Shown: positions 40,682 through 60,290 of the stretch, piece by piece
Position numbering within the stretch: the first letter of the stretch is position 1
Layout: each line of letters begins with the position of its first letter
DNA from: Blautia wexlerae DSM 19850
GTDB lineage: Bacteria > Bacillota > Clostridia > Lachnospirales > Lachnospiraceae
Assembly: GCF_025148125.1 (NCBI RefSeq)
Contig: NZ_CP102267.1
Span: forward strand, 1,746,501 to 1,810,500
DNA: 64,000 bases
Reading direction: 5' to 3'
Position numbers and translations under genes: made by a program
The notes under the pieces: generated by a model
Seen by the model: only the letters and a program-made list of their open reading frames with translations
What the model was told of the DNA's origin: nothing
The model's database searches: none

Positions 40682-42133
40682 ATGTATAGGAAAGATTCAG
40701 ATGGCTGGCTGAAGCATGCTGATTTTATGCTGTTGGACATGATCTGCCTGCAACTGTCATTTATTTTGGCGTATGCCCTTCGCGGGATGGAAATGGATTT
40801 ATACAGCGATGTTTTGTATCGTAATATGGCTGTTTTTCTTTGCCTGGCAGACCTGGTAGTGATCTTTACAGCAGGCACCATGAAAAGTGTATTGAAAAGA
40901 GGACACTACAAAGAATTCGTAGCAACTTTGAAACAGTCTGTCATAGTAGGCGTGCTGGCAATCATTTATCTGTTTGTGATTCAGGAAGGACAGAGCTTTT
41001 CCAGGCTGATTCTTTTTACCACTGTGATCATTTATCTGTTTTTTTCTTATATGGTAAGGGAAATCTGGAAGAATTCCTTACATAGAAAAATGAAAAATGG
41101 TGGCGACAAGAAGCTTCTGATCGTCACATCCAAAGCTGAGGCAGAGAAGGTGGTAAGCAACATGCAGGAAAACAACTATGCCAGATATTCTTTTGCAGGT
41201 GTAGCTGTGATCGATGAGGACTGCACCGGTCAGGAAATCTGCGGTGTTCCTGTGGTAGCCACAAAAAGCAGCACATCCATGTATGTGTGCCAGGAATGGA
41301 TTGACGAAGTACTTATGGTAATACCCGAGCACCTTCCCTATCCGGAAGATCTGATAGAACAGCTTACGGAAACAGGTGTAACCGTTCACCTGAATCTTTC
41401 CAAGATCACCAATAAAACAGGAAAAAGACAATTTGTGGAAAAGGTGGGAAACTACACGGTTCTCACCACAAGCCTTAACTACGCATCCTTCGGTCAGCTT
41501 TTCCTGAAGCGCCTTATGGACATTTTCGGCGGTCTGGTGGGCTGTATTTTTACTGGAATTATCACACTTTTCGTAGGTCCTGCAATTTATCTTGCATCAC
41601 CGGGCCCGATTTTCTTCTCTCAGGAACGTGTGGGAAAGAACGGAAAGAAATTCAAAATGTACAAGTTCCGCAGCATGTATATGGATGCAGAAGAACGTAA
41701 AGCAGAGCTCATGAAAGAGAACAAACTGGGCGATGGGAAAATGTTCAAGATGGACTTTGACCCCAGAGTAATCGGGAATAAAGTACTTCCGGACGGAACG
41801 CATAAGACAGGAGTGGGCGATTTCATCAGAAGGACAAGCCTGGATGAATTCCCACAGTTCTTTAATGTACTGAAAGGAGATATGTCCATTGTGGGAACAA
41901 GACCGCCGTTGATTTCGGAGACCAACCTGTATGAACCGCGACATAAAGCGAGACTTGCAATCAAGCCGGGAATCACCGGTATGTGGCAGGTCAGCGGACG
42001 AAGCGATATCACGGACTTCGAAGAGGTTGTGAGACTGGATAAAGAATATATTGAAAACTGGGATATTGGGTTGGATATTAAGATTCTTTTGAAGACGGTG
42101 ATGGTGGTTGCGAAGAAAGACGGGTCGATGTGA
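40682..42133 (+). CDS. Polyprenyl-phosphate sugar-1-phosphate transferase (priming transferase, WcaJ/CpsE-like)
   Basis: The 483-residue protein has four N-terminal helices, a Rossmann-like central region (KKLLIVTSKAEAEKVVSNM), a fifth helix (LVGCIFTGIITLFVG) and the catalytic C-terminus. The latter shows KFRSMYMDAEERK, RRTSLDEFPQFFNVLKGDMS, VGTRPP and KPGITGMWQVSGRSD. It transfers a hexose-1-phosphate to undecaprenyl phosphate, starting repeat-unit assembly. The ribosome site is weak (GGAAGGG). Codon use still resembles the upstream chromosomal genes; the change comes with the next gene. Confidence 0.95.
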   Translation: MYRKDSDGWLKHADFMLLDMICLQLSFILAYALRGMEMDLYSDVLYRNMAVFLCLADLVVIFTAGTMKSVLKRGHYKEFVATLKQSVIVGVLAIIYLFVIQEGQSFSRLILFTTVIIYLFFSYMVREIWKNSLHRKMKNGGDKKLLIVTSKAEAEKVVSNMQENNYARYSFAGVAVIDEDCTGQEICGVPVVATKSSTSMYVCQEWIDEVLMVIPEHLPYPEDLIEQLTETGVTVHLNLSKITNKTGKRQFVEKVGNYTVLTTSLNYASFGQLFLKRLMDIFGGLVGCIFTGIITLFVGPAIYLASPGPIFFSQERVGKNGKKFKMYKFRSMYMDAEERKAELMKENKLGDGKMFKMDFDPRVIGNKVLPDGTHKTGVGDFIRRTSLDEFPQFFNVLKGDMSIVGTRPPLISETNLYEPRHKARLAIKPGITGMWQVSGRSDITDFEEVVRLDKEYIENWDIGLDIKILLKTVMVVAKKDGSM

Positions 42134-42304: not shown

Positions 42305-43417
42305 ATGTACGATTATCTGGTGGTTGGCTCTGGCCTATACGGAGCTACGTTCGCGCATGAAGCGCATCAACATGGGAAATCTGTTCTGGTCATCGATAAG
42401 AGGCCAAACATTGCCGGTAATATCTATACTGAAAAAGTAGAAGGTATCAATTTCCACAAGTATGGTGCGCACATCTTTCACACGAATAATAAGACTGTGT
42501 GGGATTACCTCCAAAACTTTACGGTATTCAACCGTTTCACAAACTCTCCGGTGGCTAACTACAAAGGTGAGTTATACTCCATGCCTTTTAATATGTACAC
42601 ATTCAACAAGATGTGGGGCGTGGTGACACCGGAAGAAGCGCAAGCCAAGATTGATGAGCAGCGGAAAGAAATCTCCGGTGAACCGAAGAATCTGGAAGAG
42701 CAAGCCATCAGTCTGGTCGGTAGAGATATCTACGAAAAGCTGGTTAAAGGTTATACGGAGAAACAGTGGGGACGTGACTGCAAAGACCTGCCGGCGTTTA
42801 TTATTAAGCGCCTGCCTGTACGCCTGACTTTTGACAACAACTATTTCAATGCTCTATATCAAGGCATCCCAATCGGCGGTTATACGCAGATGGTCGAGCA
42901 TATGCTTGATGGTATAGAGGTAAGGCTCGGCGTGGATTATCTGGAGCATAAAGCGGAACTGGATGCGCTGGCAGAGAAGGTTGTTTATACCGGACCGATT
43001 GATGCTTATTTCAATTATTCCCTCGGTTATCTGGAGTACCGTTCCGTTCGCTTTGAAAACGAAATCCTCGACAAGCCGAACTTCCAGGGCAATGCCGCTG
43101 TGAACTACACAGATCGAGAAACGCCGTGGACACGCATTATCGAGCATAAGTGGTTCGAGTTCGGTAAGGATGAAAACGGGAATGATTTGCCGAAGACCAT
43201 AATATCCCGTGAGTACAGCTCTGAGTGGAAACCCGGAGATGAACCGTATTATCCGGTCAATGATGCGAAGAATGGGACGCTCTATGCCGACTACAAGAAG
43301 CTGGTCGAGGGTGAGAAGAATATTATCTTTGGCGGGCGACTGGGCGAGTACAAGTACTATGACATGGATGCTGTGGTGGCATCGGCGTTGGAGATGAGCG
43401 AGAAGGAATTGGCTTAA
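42305..43417 (+). CDS. glf: UDP-galactopyranose mutase
   Basis: The 370-residue flavoprotein begins YDYLVVGSGLYGATFAHEA and has INFHKYGAHIFHTNNKTVW, YTEKQWGRDCKDLP and the late GGRLGEYKYYDMD, all conserved in Glf. It converts UDP-Galp to UDP-Galf, so the polymer should contain galactofuranose, in line with the transferase at 48515. GAGGGAG lies 12-18 bases before the ATG. It is preceded by a 171-bp gap containing a GC-rich segment but no gene. Confidence 0.96.
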   Translation: MYDYLVVGSGLYGATFAHEAHQHGKSVLVIDKRPNIAGNIYTEKVEGINFHKYGAHIFHTNNKTVWDYLQNFTVFNRFTNSPVANYKGELYSMPFNMYTFNKMWGVVTPEEAQAKIDEQRKEISGEPKNLEEQAISLVGRDIYEKLVKGYTEKQWGRDCKDLPAFIIKRLPVRLTFDNNYFNALYQGIPIGGYTQMVEHMLDGIEVRLGVDYLEHKAELDALAEKVVYTGPIDAYFNYSLGYLEYRSVRFENEILDKPNFQGNAAVNYTDRETPWTRIIEHKWFEFGKDENGNDLPKTIISREYSSEWKPGDEPYYPVNDAKNGTLYADYKKLVEGEKNIIFGGRLGEYKYYDMDAVVASALEMSEKELA

Positions 43418-43448: not shown

Positions 43449-44294
43449 ATGAGCCAAAATAAATCAAACGAATCATATAAACAAAACAAAGCATTAGACA
43501 TAAAAATCATTATAGCGGCGCACAAGAAATATCGTATGCCGCAGGATGATATATACATACCACTACATGTCGGAGCTGAGGGTAAGGAGTCAATTGGCTA
43601 TCAGGGCGATAATACCGGAGAAAACATATCAAAACTTAATCCTTACTTCTGTGAACTTACCGGAATGTACTGGATGTGGAAGAATCTGAAAGCTGATTAT
43701 TTGGGATTAGCACATTACAGACGACATTTCTGCTTACGGAAGAAGAAAGCCGAGAACGGTGAAGAAAGTAAGTGGAAATCGGTATTAAACAGCAAAGAAG
43801 CGCAGATTCTGTGTAAACAATACGACGTTATCGTTCCTGAAAAACGCCACTATGTGATTGAAACCTTAGAGTCGCATTACGCACACACTCACTACATAGA
43901 ACATTTGGAGAAGACAAGGGAAATCATCAGCGAACGATATCCGCAGTATCTTGATAGTTATGACAAGATTCTTAAAAAGAAAAGCGGATATATGTTCAAT
44001 ATGTTCGTGATGAGAGCGGATTTTGTTGACGAGTACTGCTCGTTCCTTTTCGATGTGTTGCATGAACTGGATAAAAGAGTGGATACGAGCAACTACTCCG
44101 CATTCCAAGCTCGGTATCCGGGTAGAGTTGGAGAAATCCTACTGAATGTCTGGCTAGATAAAGAAGTAGAAGCGCAAGGATTAAAGGTAAAGGAAATCCA
44201 GCATATACACATGGAACCGATTAACTGGTGGAACAAGGGAACAGCATTTTTGAAGGCTAAGTTCTTAGGTAGAAGATATGAGCACGGCTTCTAA
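43449..44294 (+). CDS. DUF4422 glycosyltransferase
   Basis: The 281-residue protein has IIIAAHKKYRMPQDDIYIPL, NPYFCELTGMYWMWKNL and DYLGLAHYRRHF, diagnostic of the DUF4422 family found in capsule clusters. It is taken to transfer a sugar to the lipid-linked intermediate on the cytoplasmic face. The downstream part has MFNMFVMRADFVDEYCSFLF. The donor sugar is not predictable. AAAGGGGTAGGCG precedes the ATG. Confidence 0.9.
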   Translation: MSQNKSNESYKQNKALDIKIIIAAHKKYRMPQDDIYIPLHVGAEGKESIGYQGDNTGENISKLNPYFCELTGMYWMWKNLKADYLGLAHYRRHFCLRKKKAENGEESKWKSVLNSKEAQILCKQYDVIVPEKRHYVIETLESHYAHTHYIEHLEKTREIISERYPQYLDSYDKILKKKSGYMFNMFVMRADFVDEYCSFLFDVLHELDKRVDTSNYSAFQARYPGRVGEILLNVWLDKEVEAQGLKVKEIQHIHMEPINWWNKGTAFLKAKFLGRRYEHGF

Positions 44295-44349: not shown

Positions 44350-45474
<1,125 letters not shown>

Positions 45475-45534: not shown

Positions 45535-47574
45535 ATGAGTTTAAAAACAAAAATTAAAAATGATATGTGGCAAGTAAATTATGTTGTTCCTTTCGTAAAG
45601 AAGCATCAATTTGATGAAAAAGGAAAAGTTGATATGTTGCGGCATGTTGCTAAAGCCTATTCAAAGATCAAAGCCGTAAAGTCGAGTGAAAAGAGAACAG
45701 TTGGCTATGACACAAAGAAGCTCCTTGAGACAGTGGAGATTTCATTGGATAGCAAGAGCCGTTTTGTGTATTTCCTTGATGAAGGGAAAACAATTGCCGC
45801 CCCAGGGAATATACTGAGCAACTTTACGCTGGACTATGACAAGGTTATTCACGGCTCGTTTGAGGAATTGGCTAAGAAGGCTGCTGGTTCTGATAATTAC
45901 GGTACAGAAGCCAAGGCGGTAGCAAATGGGATTGAAACTCTCCGTGTGCGCATACTTGAGGCGGTCAAAGCGTCCAGCAACTCCTATAAGAATAATCAGA
46001 TAAAGTACTTTGAAAATATGCTGACAAGACCTGCGCGGCATTTCGATGAGGCTTTGCAGCGCCTGCTTTTCTTCAACCAGATTATGTGGCAGACAAGGCA
46101 CCGTTTGAATGGCCTTGGACGCTTGGATTTAATCTTTGGAGACCTGTATGATGCCGATGTTAAGTCAGGGGAAATCAGCTATGATTCTGCTTCAGCTCTT
46201 GTAGCTGACTTCCTTAGCTCTTTAAGCAAATATCCGGAGTACAAGAGTGATGCTCTTGAGGGCGATATTGGGCAGATTGCTATCCTTGGTGGCAACAATC
46301 CTGATGGTTCATATTTCTGCAATGACTTGACGGAGATTTTCCTGAAAGAGCAGGCTAAGCTTGGCAAGCCAGATCCGAAGACTTTCATCCGTGTGGGGAA
46401 AGGCATGCCCGACAAGCTTTTGAAGACTGCTGTGTCCTGCCTTACTGCAAAAACAGGAAGCCCTCTTTTCTCAAATGACGAAGCTGTTGTACCTGCATTG
46501 CTCAGTTTTGGAATGCCGGAAGAGGATGCTTATTCCTATTGTGTTTCCGCCTGTTGGGAGCCGTATATCGTAGGGAAGTCGCTGGATCAAAACAACGTGA
46601 TGGTCTTCGATTACTTTAAGGCTCTGGATAGAGTACTTAACAACGGGCAGGAGTATGCTTCCTTTGAAGCTTTGCTTGAGGCTTACATAAAAGAAAATGA
46701 AAAGTGCTTTGCTGAATTTTTGGAGGGTGTCAATGCTCTGAAATGGGCAAAGGATCCTCTGGTTTCCATGTTTATGGACGGCTGCTCTGAGAAACGTAAA
46801 GATGTCTCAGAAGGAGCGGTTAAATATAACAACTACGGCGTGACCACGGTTGCAATATCAAATGTCGTGGATAGTCTTTGTAATATCAACAGTCTTGTGT
46901 TTGTGGAAAAGAAGCACACATTGGCGGAGATGAACAAGGCAAGGATGAACGATTTCGCTGTTTCGAATGAGGCGAAGGATGCTGATCAGATTTACACGGA
47001 GATTACGAGTCTGAGAAAGTCTTACGGTCATGATGACCCTGAGACGGAGGAGCTTGTTAACAAGATTACAGCGTCCGTTGCCACAAAAGCGGAGCAGTAT
47101 AAGAATACTCTTGGGGGAACTGTGAAGTTTGGTTTGAGTTCTCCTGGTTACAACATCTTGAGCAAGAAGATGCCGGCTGATTTCTCCGGAAGAAAAAGTG
47201 GAAAGCCGTATAACACACACATCTCTTGCACCGATGCTGGCTATACGGAAATCGTGGGATTTGCCGGGAAGCTTGAATATGACAAACAGCGGTTCAACGG
47301 AAACGTTATTGACTTCTTCATGACAGAGTCGCTGCTTGATACAAATCTGGACAAGTTTGTCCTTTTCATGAAAGGCGCAATAGCATTGGGCTTTTTCCAG
47401 ATGCAGATGAATCTGATTGACAGCAAGACGTTGATAGATGCGAAGGCGCACCCAGAGAAGTATAAGGGACTCATTGTTCGTGTCTGGGGATTTAGCGCGT
47501 ATTTTAACGAGCTTCCGGAAAGCTATAAAGACTTGTTAATTGAAAGGGCATTAGCTGCGGAGAAAGTGATGTAA
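45535..47574 (+). CDS. Glycyl radical enzyme (PFL-like superfamily), eliminase-type active site
   Basis: The 679-residue protein has the glycyl radical loop VRVWGFSAYF with Gly about 652, 28 residues from the C-terminus. The Cys loop is SYCVSACWEP, with Cys about 340 and Glu about 342. A Cys-x-Glu pair is typical of radical dehydratases/lyases (glycerol dehydratase, CutC type), whereas pyruvate formate-lyase has Cys-Cys. At 679 residues it is shorter than PFL (about 760) and the diol dehydratases (about 790). GAAGGAAAGAAGAGG precedes the ATG. It sits between capsule genes on the same strand and 7 bp before LicD. An activating enzyme is at 55370. Substrate is unknown; a sugar, polyol or sugar-phosphate is suggested by the neighbours. 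Confidence 0.9.
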   Translation: MSLKTKIKNDMWQVNYVVPFVKKHQFDEKGKVDMLRHVAKAYSKIKAVKSSEKRTVGYDTKKLLETVEISLDSKSRFVYFLDEGKTIAAPGNILSNFTLDYDKVIHGSFEELAKKAAGSDNYGTEAKAVANGIETLRVRILEAVKASSNSYKNNQIKYFENMLTRPARHFDEALQRLLFFNQIMWQTRHRLNGLGRLDLIFGDLYDADVKSGEISYDSASALVADFLSSLSKYPEYKSDALEGDIGQIAILGGNNPDGSYFCNDLTEIFLKEQAKLGKPDPKTFIRVGKGMPDKLLKTAVSCLTAKTGSPLFSNDEAVVPALLSFGMPEEDAYSYCVSACWEPYIVGKSLDQNNVMVFDYFKALDRVLNNGQEYASFEALLEAYIKENEKCFAEFLEGVNALKWAKDPLVSMFMDGCSEKRKDVSEGAVKYNNYGVTTVAISNVVDSLCNINSLVFVEKKHTLAEMNKARMNDFAVSNEAKDADQIYTEITSLRKSYGHDDPETEELVNKITASVATKAEQYKNTLGGTVKFGLSSPGYNILSKKMPADFSGRKSGKPYNTHISCTDAGYTEIVGFAGKLEYDKQRFNGNVIDFFMTESLLDTNLDKFVLFMKGAIALGFFQMQMNLIDSKTLIDAKAHPEKYKGLIVRVWGFSAYFNELPESYKDLLIERALAAEKVM

Positions 47575-47580
47575 GATATT

Positions 47581-48498
47581 ATGAATAAAAAAATTGATTC
47601 ACATGCACAATTTAAAATGAAATTTAGAAAGCTTGATAATATGCATACCCTGACAGATTGTGAATTAAAGAGGCTTCAGAATGTAGAATTGGGTATGTTC
47701 AGAGATTTCTTGGCTGTTGCTGAAAAATACGATATAGCCTACTCCATGAGTGGCGGAACAGCACTGGGAACTGTCAGACATAAAGGATTTATTCCTTGGG
47801 ATGATGATATAGATATTAATTTGACAAGGAAGAGTTATAAACGCTTTAAAGCAATTTTTGATGAAGAATTGGGAGGAAAATATGAGCTGTGGGCTCCTGA
47901 ACTGGGAAGAAATCACGGATTAGCACATGTTCAGATAAAAAAGAAGGGAACGGTTTATAAATCTTTTAATGAGTTGTCAAAATCAGATAATGGAATTTAT
48001 ATTGATATATTTATCCAGGAAAATGTTCCAAACAACGTGATTTTGAGGAAACTGCACGGATTTCTCTGCTTGGCATTTGGCTATTTGCTTACTTGCAGGA
48101 AAACATATAATGATATGCCATATTTGAAGCCTTATATTGAGGGAAACGCCGAATTAGAGAGAGCGTTTTCTAAGAAAGAAATTATAGGAAGATTGTTTTC
48201 ATGGCTTACCTTGGATACCATCAGCAAGTTAACAATAAAAGTATATTCTATGTGCAAAAATAACGGCTCGAAGTTCACATCGATACCAACTGGCAGAAAG
48301 CACTATTTTGGTGAGCTACTTTTAAGAAGTGATAGCTGCGAAACGATCGAGATGGAATTTGAAGGAATTAAAGTAAGAATGCCGAAGGGATACGACAATT
48401 ATCTTTCGAGGTTATATGGTAAGAACTATATGGAAATTCCGCCGATTGAAAAGCGTGAACAGCATCCGCTGATGGAGCTGGATTTTGGCGAGGAATAA
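47581..48498 (+). CDS. LicD family phosphotransferase
   Basis: The 305-residue protein carries SMSGGTALGTVRHKGFIPWD followed by DDIDINLTRK, the nucleotidyltransferase motif of LicD proteins, and ends PPIEKREQHPLMELDFG as is usual. LicD enzymes transfer phosphocholine or other phospho-alditol groups from a CDP carrier to glycans. The CTP-using enzyme at 49750 in the same operon would supply the CDP donor. It begins 7 bp after the radical enzyme, without a strong ribosome site, suggesting coupling. The transferred group is inferred, not shown. Confidence 0.92.
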   Translation: MNKKIDSHAQFKMKFRKLDNMHTLTDCELKRLQNVELGMFRDFLAVAEKYDIAYSMSGGTALGTVRHKGFIPWDDDIDINLTRKSYKRFKAIFDEELGGKYELWAPELGRNHGLAHVQIKKKGTVYKSFNELSKSDNGIYIDIFIQENVPNNVILRKLHGFLCLAFGYLLTCRKTYNDMPYLKPYIEGNAELERAFSKKEIIGRLFSWLTLDTISKLTIKVYSMCKNNGSKFTSIPTGRKHYFGELLLRSDSCETIEMEFEGIKVRMPKGYDNYLSRLYGKNYMEIPPIEKREQHPLMELDFGEE

Positions 48499-48514
48499 GA
48501 ACAGGGGAACGACA

Positions 48515-49603
48515 ATGATTTATTATGTTGATATAGACCGGGAGAGACGCAATACTGCAGGTGCCAAAGCTCCGGATGATATAGCGGTGCTTTGTCAAAG
48601 AAGAGGATATGAGAGAATAGCTATCCCGTTTGCGTTAAAGAAAAAGAATAACATTTTTCAAAGATTTTGGTTGGCGTTTGTTTTGACTGTACATTGGATT
48701 AAGGTGCTTGTAAAGCTAAAGAGAGGTGACGTGATTATTTATCAGCACCCGTTTTCCGGAAAAAGATTGGCAGAGAAAATGGTGCCGATAATTCAAAGAA
48801 AAGGTTGCTATTTTATTGCCCTAATACACGATTTGGAATCCTTGCGAGGCGGAATCGAAGGCTTTGTAAGGAAGAAGAGGAGGACAAATGAAATCGGTGA
48901 TAACATTCTTCTGAAACATTTTGATGCTGTTATTTGCCATAACCAGCATATGAAAGATTATCTTGTCTCGAAGGGATTTGCCTCAGAAAGATTGTTTGTA
49001 CTTGAGATTTTCGATTATTTGACTGATGAGCCTTGCATATTGACTTCGGAGCAAGACCAACTATCTATAGCTATCGCAGGCAATCTTGCGAGTAGCAAAT
49101 GTGGGTATATTTATAAAATAATTGATGGATCAAATAAGGAGAATCAATCCTTAAAGATTTATCTTTTTGGTAATAATTATGAAACTGACAAGGGAGGTCC
49201 CAACATGATTTATGTTGGATCCTTTAAACCAGAGGAATTACCGGGACACCTTAAGGGAAGATTCGGACTTGTATGGGATGGGCCACAGGCAAATACTTGT
49301 GCAGGAAATACTGGAAATTATTTGCGGTACAATGACCCGCATAAGACTTCGTTGTACTTAACGGCCGGGTTGCCCGTGATTGTATGGAATGAAGCAGCTG
49401 TCGCGGATTTTGTTAAGGAAAATAAAGTGGGTCTACTTATTACTGATCTTAGTGATTTGGAAGAAAAATTATGCGATATATCTGAAACGGAGTACGATGA
49501 TATGTGCTGTGCTACTAAAAATATATCAGATAAATTAAGAAATGGTTATTATTTTTACAAAGCCTTGGATGAGTGTTTGCGTTATATAAATACTCTGATA
49601 TAA
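48515..49603 (+). CDS. Galactofuranosyltransferase-like glycosyltransferase
   Basis: From ATG 48515 (AGGGGAA upstream) the protein has 362 residues. It has IALIHDLESLRGG and the C-terminal block GLVWDGPQANTCAGNTGNYL and NDPHKTSLYLTAGLPVIVW, typical of beta-1,6-galactofuranosyltransferases in streptococcal and lactobacillar clusters. With glf in the same locus the assignment is consistent. It uses UDP-Galf on the cytoplasmic side. A 146-bp gap follows, holding only the next gene's leader. Confidence 0.85.
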   Translation: MIYYVDIDRERRNTAGAKAPDDIAVLCQRRGYERIAIPFALKKKNNIFQRFWLAFVLTVHWIKVLVKLKRGDVIIYQHPFSGKRLAEKMVPIIQRKGCYFIALIHDLESLRGGIEGFVRKKRRTNEIGDNILLKHFDAVICHNQHMKDYLVSKGFASERLFVLEIFDYLTDEPCILTSEQDQLSIAIAGNLASSKCGYIYKIIDGSNKENQSLKIYLFGNNYETDKGGPNMIYVGSFKPEELPGHLKGRFGLVWDGPQANTCAGNTGNYLRYNDPHKTSLYLTAGLPVIVWNEAAVADFVKENKVGLLITDLSDLEEKLCDISETEYDDMCCATKNISDKLRNGYYFYKALDECLRYINTLI

Positions 49604-49749
49604 GAAAATGCGAAAGGCGAAAAACAGCGTTATAAATTATGAGATACAAGTATAAAAGTAATTGAAAATCCCATAGGGCTGAAATTGAAATATAATTTGT
49701 ATGATTAATGAAATTGTATTTCAAACTTATATAAAGGAGATTACGACTT

Positions 49750-50460
49750 ATGAACATTGCACTACTTATCGCTGGTGGTTCTGGTGCACGTATGCATCAG
49801 AATATACCGAAGCAGTTTTTGACGGTCAATGAGCGTCCGGTCATTGTATATACGCTGGAAGCATTTCAGAAGCATCCGGAGATTGACGAAATTGCAGTTG
49901 TTTGCATTGAAGGATGGGAATCTGTTCTTTGGGCATATGCGAATCAGTTCAACATTTCAAAGCTTAAGTATGTTGTTCTTGGTGGAAAGAATGGACAGGA
50001 TTCTATCCGTAATGGCGTATATGAACTTGAAAAGCACCATTCAGCGGAGGATATTGTCCTGATTCATGATGCGATTAGGCCAATGGTTTCTGCTGAGATC
50101 ATATCCGATTGCATTAGAGTTACACAGGAACATGGAAATGCGATCACTGTAATTCCTTGTGCTGAGGCTATGATGCAGACAGAAGATGGTGAGGTTTCTA
50201 TTGGCAGTTATCCAAGAGACAGGCTCAAGAGAACACAGACCCCACAAGGATTCCGTATTGGCGATATCTGTGAACTTCATCGGGAAGCACTTAAAGCAGG
50301 AATTACAAATTCTGTTGCATCTTGTACATTGATGATAGAAATGGGAAAACAAGTTTATTTTTCGGCGGGATCTGAGAAGAATATTAAGTTAACGACAGTT
50401 GAGGATATTGATATTTTTAAAGCACTTCTTGTAGCAAAGAGATCAGATTGGCTGAAGTGA
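49750..50460 (+). CDS. IspD/TarI-family cytidylyltransferase
   Basis: The 236-residue protein has LLIAGGSGARMHQNIPKQFL (CTP-binding loop), GGKNGQDSIRNGVYEL, IHDAIRPMV and TQTPQGFR, all shared by IspD and TarI. In this locus it more likely activates a pentitol or pentulose phosphate as a CDP compound (TarI-like) than methylerythritol. It overlaps the next gene by one base (TGATG). AAAGGAGA precedes the ATG. Supply of a CDP donor fits LicD upstream. Confidence 0.88.
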   Translation: MNIALLIAGGSGARMHQNIPKQFLTVNERPVIVYTLEAFQKHPEIDEIAVVCIEGWESVLWAYANQFNISKLKYVVLGGKNGQDSIRNGVYELEKHHSAEDIVLIHDAIRPMVSAEIISDCIRVTQEHGNAITVIPCAEAMMQTEDGEVSIGSYPRDRLKRTQTPQGFRIGDICELHREALKAGITNSVASCTLMIEMGKQVYFSAGSEKNIKLTTVEDIDIFKALLVAKRSDWLK

Positions 50461-51515
50461 TGGTGGATGATATGGACTTACATAATAGCAGAACATATTT
50501 AGCTGATTTGGATGTAGCTATCCAGCATACTGTTGATTTGGAGAATTTAAAGGGAAAGTCTGTCGTCATCACCGGGGCAACAGGGACAATCGGCTCTTTT
50601 GTGACAGATGTGTTGTTAAGATATAATCAGACTTCAGGAGCCAGTATACATGTGATAGCAGCTGGGAGAAATGCGCAGAAACTCGAAAGCCAGTATGGGA
50701 AATTTAAAGGATTTCAACCGATCTCATATGATTTGAATTCTAATATTGATTTCGATGTTGATGTTGATTATATCATTCATGCAGCTGGTAATGCGTACCC
50801 TGCGGCGTTTAATGGTGACCCGGTTGGAACAATAATGGGAACTGTAAATAGCACCTACAGATTACTTGAATATGGAAGGACGCACGGTGCTAAAAGATTG
50901 CTCTATGTTTCATCAGGTGAAGTGTACGGCCAGGGAGATTTGACCATTGGTGCATTTGAGGAAACTTATTCCGGGTATTTGGATACGCAATCGCCTCGTT
51001 CTTGTTATCCAATGGCAAAGAGGACAGCGGAGAACTTGTGCGCATCTTATTCAAAACAGTACGGTTTTGAGACGGTCGTAGTTAGACCGTGTCATACATA
51101 TGGGCCTTATATTACGCAATCGGACAATCGAGCCAATGTACAATTTTTGCGCAATGTCTTAAACAACGAAGATATTGTTATGAAGAGCGCTGGAACTCAG
51201 ATGAGAAGCTATAACTATGTCGCTGATTGTGTGTCAGCACTTTTGACTGTTTTGATAAAGGGAAATTCTGGAGAAACGTATAATACTGCAAATCCAGAAG
51301 CGAGATGTACAATTGCTCAGTTAGCTGAAACGATTGCAAACAAAGCAGGTAAACAGGTCTTTTTTGCGGATCCGACTGCCGTTGATTTGGCTAATAGATC
51401 ACCGATTGCAAGGCAGGTTTTGAGTACGAGAAAGATAGAGACCCTCGGGTGGCAAGGTGCATTTACTGTGAATAAAGGAATAGAACACACGCTAAAAATC
51501 CTCTGCGGAGAATAA
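50460..51515 (+). CDS. NAD-dependent epimerase/dehydratase (extended SDR)
   Basis: From ATG 50460 the protein has 351 residues. The Rossmann motif is VVITGATGTIGSFVTDVLL, then YIIHAAGNAYP, VSSGEVYGQ and the catalytic YPMAK (Tyr-x-x-x-Lys), with RPCHTYGP. It resembles sugar-nucleotide epimerases/dehydratases such as UDP-glucuronate decarboxylase. Its start overlaps the cytidylyltransferase stop, so the two are coupled and probably act on the same nucleotide-activated or phosphorylated compound. A truncated relative lies at 54919. Substrate is unknown. Confidence 0.88.
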   Translation: MVDDMDLHNSRTYLADLDVAIQHTVDLENLKGKSVVITGATGTIGSFVTDVLLRYNQTSGASIHVIAAGRNAQKLESQYGKFKGFQPISYDLNSNIDFDVDVDYIIHAAGNAYPAAFNGDPVGTIMGTVNSTYRLLEYGRTHGAKRLLYVSSGEVYGQGDLTIGAFEETYSGYLDTQSPRSCYPMAKRTAENLCASYSKQYGFETVVVRPCHTYGPYITQSDNRANVQFLRNVLNNEDIVMKSAGTQMRSYNYVADCVSALLTVLIKGNSGETYNTANPEARCTIAQLAETIANKAGKQVFFADPTAVDLANRSPIARQVLSTRKIETLGWQGAFTVNKGIEHTLKILCGE

Positions 51516-51571
51516 GCTAAAATTTCGCCTGGGATTTAAAATTGCAATGGAGAGTAAGAGGAAGAAAGTTT

Positions 51572-52273
51572 ATGCTAGAAGATTTGAAGAAAATTGTCTG
51601 TGAGGTTAATCTTGACCTCGTTGCCAAGGGCGTCGTCATTTACACGTGGGGAAACGTCAGCGGAATATCGGAAGACAGGAAATACATGGTCATTAAACCG
51701 TCCGGTGTTGACTACGACGGAATGGCTGCTGAAGACATGGTGGTTGTGGATATTGAGAGTGGTGAGACTGTTGATGGCAAATGGAAGCCTTCTTCTGATA
51801 CCAAGACCCATCTGGAATTATATAAAAGGTATAAGGAGATAAAAGGAATCGTTCATACGCATTCCACCAATGCTGTAGCCTTTGCACAGGCTGGCATGAA
51901 CATTCCGGCACTCGGAACAACTCATGCGGATTATTTCTACGGAGACATTCCTTGTACAAGAGAACTGAGTGAAGTCGAAGTCATGGAAGCCTATGAACTG
52001 AACACCGGGAAGGTCATCATCGAGACGATTGAAAGATTGGGGTACGACCCAATGGCGATTCCTGGTATCGTGGTGAAAAATCATGGGCCATTCGCTTGGA
52101 GAACAAGTCCTGCTAATGCTGTATATAATGCTGTGGTCATGGAAAAGGTTGCGGAAATGGACATCAAGACTTTGGCTTTGAATCCGAATGCCGAGATAAA
52201 GCAGTATGTGTTGGACAAGCATTACATGAGGAAGCACGGACCGAACGCTTATTATGGACAAAAGGTTCAATGA
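51572..52273 (+). CDS. L-ribulose-5-phosphate 4-epimerase-like class II aldolase family protein
   Basis: From ATG 51572 (GAGGAAG upstream) the protein has 233 residues. It has [29 protein letters not shown], the zinc motif [33 protein letters not shown] and the late zinc His with [14 protein letters not shown]. These are close to AraD, which interconverts L-ribulose-5-P and D-xylulose-5-P by a retro-aldol mechanism. NHGPFAWR replaces the usual NHGPFxWG. In a capsule operon next to a CTP transferase, it probably supplies a pentulose phosphate for a glycan constituent. That role is inference. Confidence 0.9.
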
Positions 52274-52317
52274 TTTATTTAAGGCAAGTGATATCTTAAT
52301 AGAAGGAATGGGTATTG

Positions 52318-53676
52318 ATGGGTAATTTGGTTGTTTTAATAGTAATTTATGCCGTGTTGTTGGTGTTTTGTTTGATGAGCTCATACAGAAATGCCTTGAT
52401 GACACCTCAGTTTGCCTTTGTCGTTGGATTTTTTGTACAAGCCGTATTTGCAATAAAATATGTTGAAGTATGGGATTTGAATTTATCAAGTGCAACAATG
52501 TGGGTTCTAGGAGGCGGATCAATACTCTTTGTTGTTGTATCTTTTTCAACCCAATGGACACGGCGATTTACTGTCGTAATCAATAAAAAAAGGGAAAATT
52601 TAGGGCAGAATAATTCTTCTGCTTTGATAAAAAATAGAAATGAGAGCAAAATAAACTCTTTGAAATTATTTTTATTTGCTGCATTTCAAATGGTCACGAT
52701 TATGTTGATTATAGCCTTTTTAAGAGGATTGTCTGGTGAATCACTAGCTGACGCTATTTATGTTTTTCGCTATGCAAATACATTTACAGAAGATAAGATT
52801 GCTATACCAATGATTGTTAAACATATGAGAAATTTTTGTATGGCTTCAGGGTACATTTGGGGATACATACTTGTGTATGATATTATTCAAAAATCTGGAA
52901 ATAATAGAATGCTGCTTGTTGTCAACATTGTGTTAAGCGGAGTGTGTGGCGTGATATTTGGTTCGCGCACACCGCTATTTTCATTGCTCGTGGCTATAGT
53001 TACACAATATTTGTTATTGAGAGAAAAACAAACAGGAAAAAAGCGCAGACTTCCTTTTAAATATGTTATGGTGTGCATTCTAGGATCTATTGCTGCATTG
53101 ATTTCTTTTCAAACCCTTGGAAACTTGCTTGGTAGAAATTCAACAAGGTCACCAATGGATTATTTGGCAATGTATTTATCTGCGGAGATTAAAAATTTGG
53201 ATACGTTTATTAAGGCAGGGAGATTCGGTGCTGACATAACAGAAAACCAAACTTTTGCTGTAGCAATAAATTGGCTTTGCGGGAAGATTTTTCCGAGTGA
53301 TTGGTCGCATGAATTGAATCTTCCATTTAAGTATATTAATGGATTCAGCTTGGGAAATGTGTATACAACTTATTACTCTTTCTTGTATGACGCAGGTTAT
53401 GTTGGCGTTGTTATATTTGTGATTTTTATGGCTATTTTATCTCAAAAAATTTATTTAAAAGCAATCCGATCTAGTAAGGTAAAAAATGATTGGATTGATT
53501 TGAATGTCCTGGCTTATTCATATATGTACTATACAATTTTGTTTTCTTTTTTTTCAAATAAATTTTACGAAGAGATTTTTTCTCCTAGGTTCCTTTACTA
53601 TCTAGTATGGTGGATAGCTTTAAAATTTTTGTGTGAGTTAAAGCTGAAAACCAGGGGGAGACTGTCCGAAAACTAG
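52318..53676 (+). CDS. wzy: O-antigen/oligosaccharide repeat-unit polymerase (Wzy-like)
   Basis: The protein has 452 residues from ATG 52318 (AGAAGGA ten bases upstream) and about eleven hydrophobic helices. The large periplasmic-type loop is around residues 270-350 and contains NLDTFIKAGRFG and PFKYINGFSLGNVYTTYYSF, as in clostridial and streptococcal Wzy proteins. It joins lipid-linked repeat units on the outer face of the membrane. AT-rich composition is typical of Wzy genes. It is followed by a hairpin. Confidence 0.88.
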   Translation: MGNLVVLIVIYAVLLVFCLMSSYRNALMTPQFAFVVGFFVQAVFAIKYVEVWDLNLSSATMWVLGGGSILFVVVSFSTQWTRRFTVVINKKRENLGQNNSSALIKNRNESKINSLKLFLFAAFQMVTIMLIIAFLRGLSGESLADAIYVFRYANTFTEDKIAIPMIVKHMRNFCMASGYIWGYILVYDIIQKSGNNRMLLVVNIVLSGVCGVIFGSRTPLFSLLVAIVTQYLLLREKQTGKKRRLPFKYVMVCILGSIAALISFQTLGNLLGRNSTRSPMDYLAMYLSAEIKNLDTFIKAGRFGADITENQTFAVAINWLCGKIFPSDWSHELNLPFKYINGFSLGNVYTTYYSFLYDAGYVGVVIFVIFMAILSQKIYLKAIRSSKVKNDWIDLNVLAYSYMYYTILFSFFSNKFYEEIFSPRFLYYLVWWIALKFLCELKLKTRGRLSEN

Positions 53677-53744
53677 GATGAGTCTTCACTGAAATTAAGA
53701 TTGATTCACTCACATGGGTGTTCAATATAAATAAAAAATGTACA

Positions 53745-53775
53745 TTGCTACGAATTTTATTTTCGTAGCAATGAC
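53745..53775. terminator. Hairpin after wzy
   Basis: CATTGCTACGAA (53745-53756) and TTCGTAGCAATG (53764-53775) pair perfectly over a 7-nt loop. On the plus strand no T-run follows; on the minus strand TACATTTTTT does. It may reduce transcription into the second acyltransferase. Confidence 0.5.
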
Positions 53776-53801
53776 ACATAGAAAGAAGAGGGGCTAATTT
53801 T

Positions 53802-54905
53802 ATGCTGAAAAATCAAGTTTTCGGACGGTCTGGGGGGGGAGAGAAATATGACACGCAGATTACGATAATGCGTGTAATCCTTGTCGTGTTGGTTGTAATA
53901 GGACATGGGATATTCTACACAATCGATACTAATTTTGGTGGAATATACATTTATGAAGCGATGAATGATGCGGGGATAAAAGATACAGCATTCCATGAAT
54001 TGCTGCTTTATGTGTCTTCTTTTATTTATTCTTTTCATATGCCTGCATTCTTTTCGGTTTCCGGAATGCTTTTTTTTAGGCAGATAGAAAAGGGAAGATA
54101 CAGAAGTCTCAAATCTTTAGCTGTAATAAAATTTAAGCGACTTATTGTACCTTTGATATTTACATGGATGATTGTAAATATTCCTATTAAATGGATTTCA
54201 GGATATTATAAGGATTTGGAACATCCCTTTTTTAGTGCTTTATTTCAAGTTCTAGTTCCATATGATGTTTATTTGTGGTATCTGGAATCATTGTTTTTGG
54301 TTTTTATCTTAGCTTATATTATAGAAGGGTTTTGCAGGAAGCATCAGAAAGTTGGAGAATTTATATTTCCAGCCGCGTTATTAATATGTGGCATAATCGT
54401 TCAAAAAGTCCTTGGTAAAATGCTGATTTTAGGCAATCCCATTAAATATGTGTTTTGGTTTTACATGGGAAAGTGGATAGATCAATGCAGATTTCCAATA
54501 AAGAGCAGATTCCAGAGGTTGATAAATATAGCGGCTTTTTTCGCGGCATATGTTATTTCGTTGAATATCCCACATGGTGGTTGGATTATACGTGAGACGA
54601 TTACTCCATTTATAGGGACTATCTTGTTGTGGGACTTGTGTGCAAACATTTTGAGTATGATTTCGCAACAAAGCAAAGATAGCTTGAATAATGCCGCTTC
54701 TTATGCGTTTGGAATTTATTTGTATGCTGACCCGATAAATTATCTTATCTTGTGGGGTGTGAACGAAATTATTGGCGTTTGCATTTTGGGCTCAGAACTA
54801 GGAGCAATTGCGGTGTTTTTATCTCGCATTCTTCTTTCGACAGCTTTTGCTTTTTGGGTGGTCTGGATCTTGAAAAAGATCAATTTGAAAATCTGCTTAT
54901 ATTAG
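53802..54905 (+). CDS. Second membrane O-acyltransferase (acyltransferase 3 family) with 5' poly-G tract
   Basis: The 367-residue protein starts MLKNQVFGRSGGGEKYDTQI, and the acyltransferase 3 fold begins at ITIMRVILVVLVVIGHG with the conserved His. About ten helices follow. The Gly-Gly-Gly is encoded by a run of eight G at 53832-53839, ten codons after the ATG. Change of one G would shift the frame; the shifted frames stop soon after. AAGAAGAGGGG precedes the ATG. It would acylate the polysaccharide, perhaps at a different position than the enzyme at 44350. Confidence 0.88.
   Translation: MLKNQVFGRSGGGEKYDTQITIMRVILVVLVVIGHGIFYTIDTNFGGIYIYEAMNDAGIKDTAFHELLLYVSSFIYSFHMPAFFSVSGMLFFRQIEKGRYRSLKSLAVIKFKRLIVPLIFTWMIVNIPIKWISGYYKDLEHPFFSALFQVLVPYDVYLWYLESLFLVFILAYIIEGFCRKHQKVGEFIFPAALLICGIIVQKVLGKMLILGNPIKYVFWFYMGKWIDQCRFPIKSRFQRLINIAAFFAAYVISLNIPHGGWIIRETITPFIGTILLWDLCANILSMISQQSKDSLNNAASYAFGIYLYADPINYLILWGVNEIIGVCILGSELGAIAVFLSRILLSTAFAFWVVWILKKINLKICLY
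53832..53839 (+). repeat. Homopolymer G8 inside the second acyltransferase gene
   Basis: Eight consecutive G lie about 30 bases after the start codon. Tracts of this length can be unstable, but eight is near the lower limit for frequent switching. Confidence 0.9.
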
Positions 54906-54918
54906 ATTTGGAGGAAAG

Positions 54919-55143
54919 ATGACTGACTATTATAAAATATCGCTAGATGAAATGCCTTTATTTGATGAATTAGGCAATAAAAGCATACTGATTACTGGAG
55001 CAACAGGCTTGATTGGCAGTGCAATTGTTAACTCTTTTTTATCATATAATGAACATTCACCAAAGAAAATCCATACCATTCTTTATGTGCGAAATATGAG
55101 AAAAGCACTGGATTTATTTGGTGACCGTGCAGATATTTCTTAA
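54919..55143 (+). pseudogene. Truncated NAD-dependent epimerase/dehydratase (5' fragment)
   Basis: The 74-residue reading frame contains the SDR nucleotide-binding start SILITGATGLIGSAIVNSFL and then stops at RADIS. The catalytic Tyr-x-x-x-Lys half is missing. It resembles the N-terminus of the SDR at 50460, so it is a relic of a second, related gene. A good ribosome site (GGAGGAAAG) is still present. It joins directly to a flippase fragment. Confidence 0.8.
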
Positions 55144-55286
55144 CAAGCGGAATCTTTAATACAGCGATTTTGGTTATCGCTGGTGCTTTCAGCTATTTTA
55201 TGATTTTGCTTATTTTGCGGGATGAGTTTTTCTTGTCAAATGCAATTGGCGCTTTGAAGAAAATGAGGGCTAAGCTCAAAAATTAG
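55143..55286 (+). pseudogene. C-terminal fragment of a flippase/polysaccharide membrane protein
   Basis: A 47-codon open stretch reads SGIFNTAILVIAGAFSYFMI, one hydrophobic helix, then RDEFFLSNAIGALKKMRAKL and a stop. This matches the end of Wzx-like proteins. It has no start of its own and abuts the truncated SDR, so a deletion has fused the two. A complete wzx lies at 58354. Confidence 0.6.
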
Positions 55287-55369
55287 AATATTATGTAGCA
55301 TAGCCTATCGTTGGAGAATTTAAGCTTGTCAGTAACAAATTTGTAAGAGGGAAGTGATTTAAATTTGAT

Positions 55370-56245
55370 ATGATACCTGAAAAGAATATCCTCCTCACCA
55401 ATATCCAGCGTTTCTCTCTGCACGACGGCCCTGGAATTAGGACTACGGTTTTTCTTAAAGGCTGTTCAATACACTGCCCTTGGTGTAGCAATCCGGAAAA
55501 TTTACTGCACAGAGAGCAAAGGTATGTAAGGAAGAATCATAACGGTAAAGTTGAAGAAGAAGGAACCTATGGAAAATGGTATAGCCCAGATGAGCTGTAC
55601 GCCGAAGTTGTAAAAGATAAAGCGTTTTACGGTTCCTGTAATTCTAATTCGGTTACTTATCTGGACTCCCTTACGGGTGGAGTGACGTTCTCTGGCGGCG
55701 AGTGTATGCTCCAGATGAAAGAGCTTGATCCTATGCTTCAACGGCTTAACGATGAGCAAATCCACATAGTTGTGGAGACAAGCCTTTTCTGCTCATCAGC
55801 ACAACTTTCCATTGCAATCAAGCATATAGACCTGTTTTACGTTGATATTAAGGTTCTGAGTGATGATTTGTGCTCATCTTCTCTCGGTGGAAAGATTGAG
55901 CTATATAAAAACAATCTTGTGACATTACTGAACAGCGGCAAGCCAGTTGTCTTTCGCTTGCCGGTTATCGGCGGTTACACGGATAGTGAGGAAAACAGGA
56001 AAGCTGTGGTTGAACTGATAGAATCGAAAGCCAAAAGCTATTCGAACCTTTTGAAGATTGAAATCCTCAAGGAACATAATCTTGGAACGAATAAGTATCA
56101 GTCGTTGATTGATGGCGGGAATGAGATAATGCTGCCAGAATATAATGGCGTAAGTGATGAGCTGATGGGGCAGTATAAGATAGAAATTGAAGAGGGGCTG
56201 AGGATCGTTGGAAGTTCAATACCTGTGGAAATCTGCAAAATTTGA
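55370..56245 (+). CDS. Glycyl radical enzyme activating enzyme (radical SAM)
   Basis: The 291-residue protein has FSLHDGPGIRTTVFLKGCSI followed by HCPWCSNPENL; the Cys-x3-Cys-x2-Cys motif binds the 4Fe-4S cluster used with S-adenosylmethionine. GGVTFSGGECMLQ is the SAM-binding motif of this family and LFYVDIKVLSDD follows. The clostridial-type insert with two extra ferredoxin clusters is not seen, so it is PFL-AE-like in size. It should install the glycyl radical in the enzyme at 45535, the only such protein in the window, although 7.8 kb of genes and a deletion scar lie between them. GAGGGAAGTG precedes the ATG. Confidence 0.93.
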   Translation: MIPEKNILLTNIQRFSLHDGPGIRTTVFLKGCSIHCPWCSNPENLLHREQRYVRKNHNGKVEEEGTYGKWYSPDELYAEVVKDKAFYGSCNSNSVTYLDSLTGGVTFSGGECMLQMKELDPMLQRLNDEQIHIVVETSLFCSSAQLSIAIKHIDLFYVDIKVLSDDLCSSSLGGKIELYKNNLVTLLNSGKPVVFRLPVIGGYTDSEENRKAVVELIESKAKSYSNLLKIEILKEHNLGTNKYQSLIDGGNEIMLPEYNGVSDELMGQYKIEIEEGLRIVGSSIPVEICKI

Positions 56246-56309
56246 ACCACCAGTATTCCGCCACGCCTTGCCACTTGACTATTGACAGGGAGCACATTGG
56301 GGTCAGACC

Positions 56310-58353: not shown

Positions 58354-59805
58354 TTGAAAAAAACTTCAATTAAAAAGAACTTTATAATGAATGCATTGCT
58401 TACAATGTCATCGTTCATTTTTCCATTGATTACGTTTCCATATGTTTCGCGTATCTTATCACCGGAGGGGACTGGAAAAGTGTCTTTTGCAACTTCGGTG
58501 ATTGCTTATTTTGCGCTGTTTGCGCAGCTGGGAATTCCCACTTATGGAATCCGGGTGTGTGCGAAGGTACGGGATGATAAAGTTGAATTATCCAGGACTG
58601 TGCAGGAAATATTTGTTATTAATGTTGGTATGACGGCAATAACATATATTGCATTCGGAATTGCTTTGGGATGTGTACCTCGTTTGCAGGCAGAACGTCT
58701 ATTATTTTTGATTATGAGTACCACATTGTTATTTAATACAATTGGTATGGATTGGCTGTATCGTGGATTGGAGAAATATACATATATTACACTTAGATCT
58801 ATTTTATTTAAATTTATAGCACTCCTTGCTATGTTTGCATTGATCCATCAGAAGAGTGATTATGTTATTTATGGCGGAATTTCTATTTTTGCTGCGTCAG
58901 CTTCGAATATTTGTAATTTAGTTAATGTCCACCGTTACATTCATCTAAAACCTGTCGGAGACTACAATTTTCGGAGACATTTGGGACCAATCATGATTTT
59001 CTTTGCGATGTCATGTGCTACGACAATTTACACTAACCTGGATACGGTTATGTTGGGGTTTATTAAAACAGATGCTGATGTTGGATATTATAATGCTGCT
59101 GTAAAAATCAAGGGTGTATTATTGGGAATCGTTACTTCTCTGGGAACTGTGCTATTGCCAAGGGCTTCTTATTACATAGAGCATCATGAAATGGAAGAAT
59201 TCCGGAGAATTACGAAAAAGGCTATTAATTTCGTTTTCCTGATTGCGGTTCCTTTGACCGTTTATTTTATTTTGTATGCAAAAGAAGGGATTCTGTTTTT
59301 ATCAGGAGATGCTTATATTTCAGCAGTTGTTCCAATGCAGATTATTATGCCTACGATTCTGTTTATAGGTCTGACGAATATTATGGGGATTCAGATGTTG
59401 GTTCCATTGGAACGTGAAAAAGTGGTTTTGTATTCGGAAATTGCAGGAGCAGTTGTTGATCTGATTTTGAATGCAATATTGATTCCACAATTGGCATCAG
59501 CAGGAGCAGCAATTGGTACTCTTGTGGCAGAAGGTGTTGTCTGGATAGTACAGTTTATTGCATTAAGAAAAGAAGTTACACCAGCTTACAGGAATGTACG
59601 TTATGGCGCAGTTATATTAGCAACAGTTGTTGGAGTGGTAAGTTCAAGCTGGGTTAAGATGCTGGGAATGGGAAATTTTGTAACGTTGGTATTTTCGGCT
59701 GTTCTTTTCTTTGGTGGATATGGTATTATTTTGACAGTATTGAAAGAGTCGCTTGTATGGGAAATTGAGAGTCAGGTTTTGAAAAAATTAACAAAGAAAA
59801 AATAG
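58354..59805 (+). CDS. wzx: Polysaccharide flippase (Wzx-like, MOP superfamily)
   Basis: The 483-residue protein starts at TTG 58354 with GGGAGA seven bases upstream. It has about 14 helices and the family start NFIMNALLTMSSFIFPLITF followed by PYVSRILSPEGTGKVSFA, typical of RfbX/Wzx flippases. It moves lipid-linked repeat units across the membrane. It lies between two intron copies. Its C-terminus does not match the fragment at 55143, so that relic came from a different flippase. Confidence 0.94.
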   Translation: MKKTSIKKNFIMNALLTMSSFIFPLITFPYVSRILSPEGTGKVSFATSVIAYFALFAQLGIPTYGIRVCAKVRDDKVELSRTVQEIFVINVGMTAITYIAFGIALGCVPRLQAERLLFLIMSTTLLFNTIGMDWLYRGLEKYTYITLRSILFKFIALLAMFALIHQKSDYVIYGGISIFAASASNICNLVNVHRYIHLKPVGDYNFRRHLGPIMIFFAMSCATTIYTNLDTVMLGFIKTDADVGYYNAAVKIKGVLLGIVTSLGTVLLPRASYYIEHHEMEEFRRITKKAINFVFLIAVPLTVYFILYAKEGILFLSGDAYISAVVPMQIIMPTILFIGLTNIMGIQMLVPLEREKVVLYSEIAGAVVDLILNAILIPQLASAGAAIGTLVAEGVVWIVQFIALRKEVTPAYRNVRYGAVILATVVGVVSSSWVKMLGMGNFVTLVFSAVLFFGGYGIILTVLKESLVWEIESQVLKKLTKKK

Positions 59806-59875
59806 AAGTGTTGATAGTAGTGGGGTAGCACTTCATAAAATGTGTATAAACAAGGGGAATACTCGGGGTCAGACC

Positions 59876-60290
59876 GTGCGTCCAGCTAAGGGTATATAGT
59901 CCGGTGTGTGGAAGCCCCATCAAATAAGCTGCTAACCACAGCATTTGAAGCGAGTCTTGAGTCTGTCGCGGTAACGTTGCAGGCTAAGCGTAGACAGCAA
60001 GATAACAGGGATAGCTATTGAGCACCGAAATCCTAAAGTCACCAGAGGGTCGACATCGTGGTCTGGATGGAAGACAACATATGTATTTATCGTTATGGTG
60101 AGATTTTACATACCTATGCGGTGTTGGTTGGAACTATTCATGTTATACAGGGAATATATATTAACTGGAGAGAACCTGCATTTTCTTCTGTAGTGTGTAA
60201 ACAGAAAAAGTCCTATAAGCCGAAACCAGCAAGGCTGGTGGAAATACCGAAGGACAATGGAAAGATGCGACCGCTCAGTATCTATTGTTA
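59876..60290 (+). mobile_element. Group II intron remnant with internal deletion
   Basis: From GTGCG at 59876 the sequence is nearly identical to 56310-56640 of the intact copy. It then jumps at AGAAA to the part equivalent to about 57050 and ends near 60290. The 3' half with YADD, domains V and VI is absent. The upstream exon is again GGGGTCAGACC. An open frame across it is ribozyme plus a maturase piece, not a gene. Confidence 0.9.

Follow-up and report, generated by a model that had tools for sequence, protein, structure and literature searches.

Glycyl radical enzymes (GREs) receive a glycyl radical from an activase; a cysteine then becomes a thiyl radical that abstracts hydrogen from the substrate, and the glutamate of the Cys-x-Glu motif assists the loss of a neighbouring group. 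We know of no characterised GRE outside catabolism, fermentation and deoxynucleotide synthesis. Among the matches listed from the open-licence literature of PubMed Central (PMC; titles and abstract starts), there was no description of a GRE in polysaccharide synthesis, which agrees with an earlier note on this DNA that knew of no such capsule pathway. Here, we describe a GRE gene located within a polysaccharide locus in a window of 64,000 nucleotides (G000:C1:1746501-1810500) of the single-contig, 4.69 Mb genome of Blautia wexlerae DSM 19850. This GRE is probably one copy of a GRE family that is dedicated to surface-polysaccharide synthesis and occurs mainly in Lachnospiraceae.

The window GRE matches PF02901 (225.4 bits) and PF01228 (50.1 bits), both above cut-off. 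By its PFL-like barrel domain, its Gly_radical domain and its fold, it is a member of the glycyl radical enzyme superfamily. Cys340 (codon at 46552), Glu342 and Gly652 (codon at 47488) are kept in all 29 rows of the clade alignment. The earlier note had located this 679-aa protein and its motifs (Cys-Trp-Glu, glycyl loop) correctly, and the adjacency to LicD stands as well, with a gap of 6 nt instead of the 7 bp given there; 60 nt separate the GRE from the end of the preceding acyltransferase gene. None of the NCBIfam GRE families reached its cut-off with the window GRE. Namely, the scores were 82.6–179.1 bits for CutC, HypD, sulfopropanediol dehydratase, aryl decarboxylase and PRK09983 (cut-offs 1000–1150), and 215.5 bits for TIGR01774, the broad PFL2/glycerol dehydratase subfamily (cut-off 678.2). 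Two more glycyl radical genes are present in the same genome (G000:C1:1189711 and G000:C1:2318603), the former with a GCVEPQ motif, which we take to be typical of diol dehydratases.

Clustering with other GREs, a check proposed in the earlier note, set the enzyme apart from the 19 standard GREs of a tree that includes no named, biochemically characterised GRE. This tree was calculated by a quick method for 71 GREs with rows longer than 600 aa, with support values from the SH-like approximate likelihood ratio test (SH-aLRT). Three branches were resolved: 29 polysaccharide-type rows (SH-aLRT 100), 22 sister short GREs (100), and the standard GREs (99). The polysaccharide-type rows, also used in the alignment, include the window and two genes of related locus L016 and leave out L018 and L052; duplicates (L022, L047, L050, and L109) were removed. 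Locus L020, which is present in the tree, was assigned to no group and stands outside the counts. It is a contig of a Gemmatimonadota metagenome-assembled genome, with an ACWE-type GRE on a long branch and an activase.

The window GRE belongs to a compact clade of GREs of about 675 aa, with ACWE and RVWG signatures, that occur amid polysaccharide genes. Every row of the two short clades (29/29 polysaccharide, 22/22 sister) has Ala339-Cys-Trp341-Glu, Trp651-Gly652, Asn96, and Asn354. The standard GREs, by comparison, possess Gly-Cys-Val-Glu (19/19), His (16/19) or Asp (3/19) at position 96, and in 11 of 19 cases Asp at position 354. Several residues are characteristic of the polysaccharide branch: Lys237 and Asn353 (29/29 versus 0/41 in the other rows); Asp593 (29/29 versus 0/22 in sister and 1/19 in standard GREs); and His189 (28/29 versus 2/22 and 0/19). 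The clade also lacks two stretches, some 36 and 37 residues long, that standard GREs have shortly before Asn96. These adjoin a loop in which characterised enzymes presumably carry His164 or Asp216.

Relatives are numerous: at least 403 proteins at E 1e-10 were found among 7998 scored candidates, with identities to the window GRE of 61–82% among the 120 matches listed, its own sequence aside. A chance product of assembly or annotation is ruled out by these figures. The clade is distinct and patchily distributed, and its members are mostly labelled Lachnospiraceae. With the single sequence as query, 11 of 397 sampled genomes of the family contained a match of at least 435 bits, and the next score was 277. 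With the alignment as query, no score between 717 and 343 bits occurred across 392 genomes of the order; no match at E 1e-60 was obtained in six further genomes of the window's genus. One class-level member scored 614 bits, and nothing above 371 bits was detected in a phylum sample of 398 genomes apart from the window's own copy. Two family GRE genes per locus occur in L010 and L016, the second L010 gene being incomplete at the sequence end. The L018 relative is split into oppositely oriented halves, and a perfect inverted repeat of 35 bp marks the break (L018:1-35 and L018:2687-2721). This split reflects either an invertible switch or an artefact of assembly; the first base of the contig is also the first of one arm.

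The earlier note had placed the GRE in a polysaccharide locus together with a radical S-adenosylmethionine (SAM) activase on the same strand. Both hold, and the homologues, whose surroundings had been suggested as a further check, keep this context. Polysaccharide context was scored by a fixed label rule, with a label library partly derived from these same loci; counts out of 29 loci exclude the window, and counts out of 30 include it. Within the sequence examined, at least one labelled polysaccharide gene was present in 28 of 29 polysaccharide-type loci versus 1 of 22 sister loci. Dropping the queries that came from the locus itself left this result at 28/29 versus 1/22, with two or more such genes in 27 of 29 loci, and the window genes as the only queries gave 24/29 versus 1/22. 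The rule misses distant families, as its sole miss, L055, scores 0 despite a WbsX glycosyltransferase recognised by Pfam. The same locus has an IspD-SDR fusion (SDR, short-chain dehydrogenase/reductase) and a nucleotidyltransferase-kinase fusion. In L004, a nucleotidyltransferase fused with an SHMT/fluorothreonine-transaldolase-like pyridoxal-phosphate domain is encoded two genes after the GRE (L004:12946-15366).

An activase was labelled in 26 of 29 loci, at most two open reading frames (ORFs) from the GRE in 24 of these 26; in L004, L008, and L010, no activase label was obtained within the sequence stretch examined. By its score and its CxxxCxxC motif (Cys32, 36, and 39), the window activase is assigned to the GRE activase family TIGR02494. 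Its five other cysteines are dispersed, with no evident extra ferredoxin-type cluster domain. Several sister loci look sugar-catabolic by gene content, with genes for ABC sugar transporters, LacI, aldo/keto reductases, SMP-30, DeoC-type aldolases or sugar isomerases; many ORFs in them are unlabelled. The sister member L061 is below cut-off for every NCBIfam GRE family matched.

As judged from sequence comparison, the GRE has a glycosyltransferase as its recurring partner, in many cases of galactofuranosyl type and in some fused. A labelled glycosyltransferase lies directly upstream on the same strand in 15 of 28 full-length GREs. In L056, a GT2 domain and the GRE share a single frame (988 aa), and in L049 a GT2 domain is joined to the activase (746 aa). 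A third fusion, P0002 (998 aa, 44 member sequences), combines the GRE with an MptE-like domain; MptE-like (Maf) proteins are, we assume, glycosyltransferases. The L056 GT2 domain has 11 other relatives above 140 bits: six adjoin a GRE, two are located at a distance of two ORFs, and the remaining three at three, four, and seven ORFs. The best NCBIfam family of all five GRE-adjacent GT2 proteins tested was GlfT1 (NF050113, 64.2–88.0 bits against a cut-off of 330).

GlfT1-like GT2 genes (E ≤1e-9) were detected in 15 of 30 GRE genomes versus 9 of 110 genomes of the family. Without four GRE carriers the latter value is 8/106 (Fisher p ~8e-7, uncorrected for kinship), assuming that the 110 genomes are G000–G109, so that G000, G046, G079, and G098 are excluded. 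Eighteen of 24 GlfT1-like matches, in 14 genomes, lie within 10 kb of a GRE; a binomial figure for this count is overstated, since its null is the whole genome while glycosyltransferases cluster in such loci. Ten of the 17 in-locus genes, the GRE-fused one excluded, adjoin the GRE versus a base rate of 62/421 ORFs (p ~3e-5, also uncorrected for kinship). We assigned the counts of 10, 17, and 18 manually, using gene coordinates. DUF4422 genes are present in six of 30 GRE loci, the window counted, and are located one or two genes upstream of the GRE in the window, L004, L007, and L013; by genome they are mildly enriched (15/30 versus 26/106, p 0.008). The DUF4422 domain of WbbM is described as a UDP-galactofuranose transferase in PMC12269835. 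Taken together, a galactofuranosyl-type transferase (GlfT1-like or DUF4422) occurs in 19 of 30 loci, one genome having both. A gene in L052 that resembles the window's galactofuranosyltransferase (185 bits) would raise this number to 20/30.

Computation establishes the family of this enzyme, its motifs, fold and clade, its context and fusions, and the linked activase. From these we infer catalysis by this enzyme, elimination chemistry, a sugar-type substrate and coupling to the adjoining transferase. The linked activase would install a radical on Gly652, from which it would pass to Cys340, and Cys340 would abstract hydrogen from the substrate, a sugar or polyol. Glu342 could aid the departure of the adjacent C–O (or a similar) bond, giving a deoxy-keto or deoxy-aldehydo product. 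This product, or a residue tailored in this way, would be used by the adjacent or fused transferase, in many loci of galactofuranosyl type, before export by Wzx. Elimination is our best guess because the catalytic parts of GREs are conserved, and the enzyme is most likely a dedicated eliminase that makes or tailors a sugar for the adjacent transferase. The earlier note likewise drew an eliminase from Cys-x-Glu, a reading still tied to this motif; two positions that we take to be the binding positions of diol dehydratases and CutC are invariant Asn. We assume that positions 96 and 354 correspond to the binding residues His164 and Asp447 of glycerol dehydratase (GDH), and position 96 also to Asp216 of CutC. 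These alterations call for caution in assuming diol-dehydratase chemistry. The substrate is most likely sugar-like, given part of the sister-clade surroundings, the sugar phosphates bound in solved relatives and the glycosyltransferase fusions.

Several observations weigh against a family dedicated to surface polysaccharides. Searches for IspD, LicD, AraD, SDR, and Glf, those for AraD and SDR relying on similarity to the window's own genes alone, revealed no precursor gene shared by all loci. Many ORFs are unlabelled as well, so that the substrate is not readable from the neighbourhood; as no common precursor gene was found, a sugar nucleotide or sugar phosphate that is available widely, or else a glycan residue, may fill this role. 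The matches of the PDB search include no solved member of the polysaccharide-locus clade, and the GRE copies in L052 (internal stops) and L018 (split) are apparently broken. As to the glycosyltransferases, which are common in such loci anyway, their proximity is a weak argument. All five GT2 proteins missed the GlfT1 cut-off, with a rhamnosyltransferase family second in two of them; in the window, an acyltransferase separates the DUF4422 gene from the GRE. Finally, 11 of 30 loci have neither a GlfT1-like nor a DUF4422 gene in the sequence examined. This last point bears also on the most specific form of the explanation, in which galactofuranose, either as UDP-Galf or as a Galf residue, is attacked by the GRE at its exocyclic 5,6-diol. 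We put this forward tentatively and regard it as rather unlikely in so precise a form, as we do its predicted product, a 5-deoxy-6-aldehydo or 6-deoxy-5-keto furanose handled by the adjacent galactofuranosyl-type transferase. The ranking of GlfT1 among the GT2 neighbours, the position of the DUF4422 genes and the GT2-GRE fusion argue for it, and the exocyclic 1,2-diol is similar to known substrates of GREs such as propanediol. Glf exceeds its cut-off in 28 of 30 GRE genomes but also in 75 of 80 genomes of the family; being nearly universal, it is uninformative. It is the neighbouring transferases alone that single out galactofuranose, and Asn at the two GDH positions speaks against a diol of this kind.

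If AraD, SDR and IspD-like proteins supplied pentulose or pentitol phosphates or CDP-pentitols, the GRE could convert them to a deoxypentitol for transfer by LicD. The tie to CDP-activated pentitols drawn in the earlier note exists in the window, where AraD, SDR, IspD-like, and LicD genes beside the GRE form a plausible CDP-pentitol set; the GRE-LicD-IspD-SDR arrangement is repeated in L014, and L004 contains AraD, an FGGY kinase, and LicD. It does not extend to the family. Only six of 30 loci have LicD no more than 10 kb from the GRE. With the window IspD as query, an IspD-like gene was obtained in four of 30 (the window plus 3/29), namely in the window itself, L006, L014, and L055; L004 has a differing nucleotidyltransferase fusion. 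One family with one substrate would require a pentitol substrate in the other loci too. We therefore regard the pentitol route as improbable; the CDP-pentitol genes of the window may supply a different residue of the repeat unit. Still more remote, and in our judgement very improbable, is the supply of a small general metabolite instead of a sugar, for instance a precursor of acyl or acetyl groups for use by the acyltransferases next to the GRE (window, L010, and L018). By our labels, acyltransferases do not recur regularly beside the GRE, the Cys-Cys pair of pyruvate formate-lyase is not present, and the match to that enzyme is remote (38.1 bits versus a cut-off of 994.2). The dedicated polysaccharide GRE remains our preferred explanation.

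The polysaccharide locus of the window, which extends from the CpsB/Wzz/CpsD/LCP-like genes to Wzx, lies entirely on the plus strand; its features are listed below.

Features of the polysaccharide locus, with positions counted from the first nucleotide of the window
Feature	Position	Strand	Basis
CpsB/Wzz/CpsD/LCP-like genes	~32.8-37.4 kb	+	named from sequence by inspection
Initiating polyprenyl glycosylphosphotransferase	40682..42133	+	TIGR03025 358.4 bits, cut-off 295.55
UDP-galactopyranose mutase (Glf), UDP-galactofuranose source	42305..43417	+	TIGR00031 402.4 bits, cut-off 303.75
DUF4422 (GT111-type) glycosyltransferase, putative galactofuranosyltransferase	43449..44294	+	PF14393 E 2.4e-88; WbbM 6u4b E 2.6e-35
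Membrane acyltransferase (Acyl_transf_3), (AGCA)n tract near start	44350..45474	+	domain and repeat scan
GRE, short ACWE/RVWG clade, 679 aa	45535..47574	+	domain, profile, fold, alignment
LicD-type phosphoalcohol transferase	47581..48498	+	domain
Glycosyltransferase, beta-1,6-galactofuranosyltransferase-like	48485..49603	+	NF007326 274.1 bits, below cut-off 420
IspD-like cytidylyltransferase	49750..50460	+	NF001183 ribitol-5-phosphate type 161.6 (cut-off 166); ispD TIGR00453 166.4 (cut-off 181.3)
Extended SDR (epimerase/dehydratase family)	50448..51515	+	domain, NCBIfam
L-ribulose-5-phosphate 4-epimerase-like (AraD-like)	51542..52273	+	NF006047 subfamily 354.3 > 257; equivalog TIGR00760 334.3 < 389.1
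Wzy-type oligosaccharide repeat unit polymerase	52315..53676	+	TIGR04370 109.3 bits, cut-off 40
Second Acyl_transf_3 acyltransferase	53802..54905	+	domain
Radical-SAM GRE-activating enzyme, 291 aa	55370..56245	+	TIGR02494 196.3 bits, cut-off 174.35
Reverse-transcriptase-like ORFs	56831-57526, 57536-58135	+	named from sequence by inspection
Wzx-type flippase	58354..59805	+	named from sequence without family search; homologues recur in related loci

With 296.8 bits for PF14393 (cut-off 25), the DUF4422 gene product belongs to the DUF4422/GT111 family, and its activity is predicted. The acyltransferase gene upstream of the GRE contains 23.8 copies of the AGCA tetranucleotide (44376-44470) within its 5′ end. 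It is a candidate phase-variable gene, because AGCA slippage would shift its reading frame. Direct repeats flank Wzx (56299-56598 with 59865-60164, 99%; 57048-57135 with 60203-60290, 100%), and together with the reverse-transcriptase-like ORFs they appear as of a broken group II intron. The gene at 38501-40171 resembles AAA-ATPase_like/PDDEXK_9 proteins, as judged by inspection. Such proteins adjoin polysaccharide genes in L011 and L055 (Pfam) and in L019 (label).

If the proposed role is true, this clade, with its glycosyltransferase fusions and neighbouring activase, brings radical chemistry into glycan biosynthesis, and gut anaerobes gain sugars obtainable only without oxygen. The commensal surface is what phages and the immune system encounter. 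Action on galactofuranose, if true, would open an oxygen-gated route by which gut Lachnospiraceae equip their surface glycans with furanoses not seen before, of deoxy-aldehydo or deoxy-keto type, a surface-sugar chemistry accessible to anaerobes alone.

Galactofuranose pathways comprise Glf, GlfT1/GlfT2, and the DUF4422 proteins WbbM/PamA, and Glf and galactofuranosyl-type transferases also surround the GRE. We know of no radical enzyme in these pathways, and a search of the open-licence PMC literature for both subjects together returned only unrelated papers. Among the GREs, CutC is distant: the window GRE scores 169.6 bits against its cut-off of 1050, with Asn at the position presumed to be Asp216, and we take the surroundings of CutC to be unrelated to those of the clade. 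An identity as pyruvate formate-lyase or as a CutC-like enzyme is ruled out by scores, signature and context. The diol and glycerol dehydratases (5i2a/5i2g and 1r8w) share 22–26% identity with the window GRE, which is 107–164 residues shorter; they have GCVE and RVxG where the clade has ACWE and RVWG. The active-site pair presumed to be GDH His164 and Asp447 is absent from the clade, the positions mapped by sequence alignment being Asn96 (29/29) and Asn354 (29/29). PflD and YbiW, with structures containing 1,5-anhydrohexitol 6-phosphates (8id0, 8id7) or malonate (8yjo), share 18–23% identity and are about 100–130 residues longer. Of these, 8id0, whose ligand is sugar-sized, is the top PDB profile match (257.1 bits; next 248.6). 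The sister short GREs (L057–L066 and L114–L125) have ACWE, RVWG, Asn96, and Asn354 in common with the clade (22/22) but differ in forming a separate clade (SH-aLRT 100) with polysaccharide genes labelled in 1 of 22 loci. The GRE clade of surface-polysaccharide loci places members of a known enzyme superfamily in a biological setting that is new for them.

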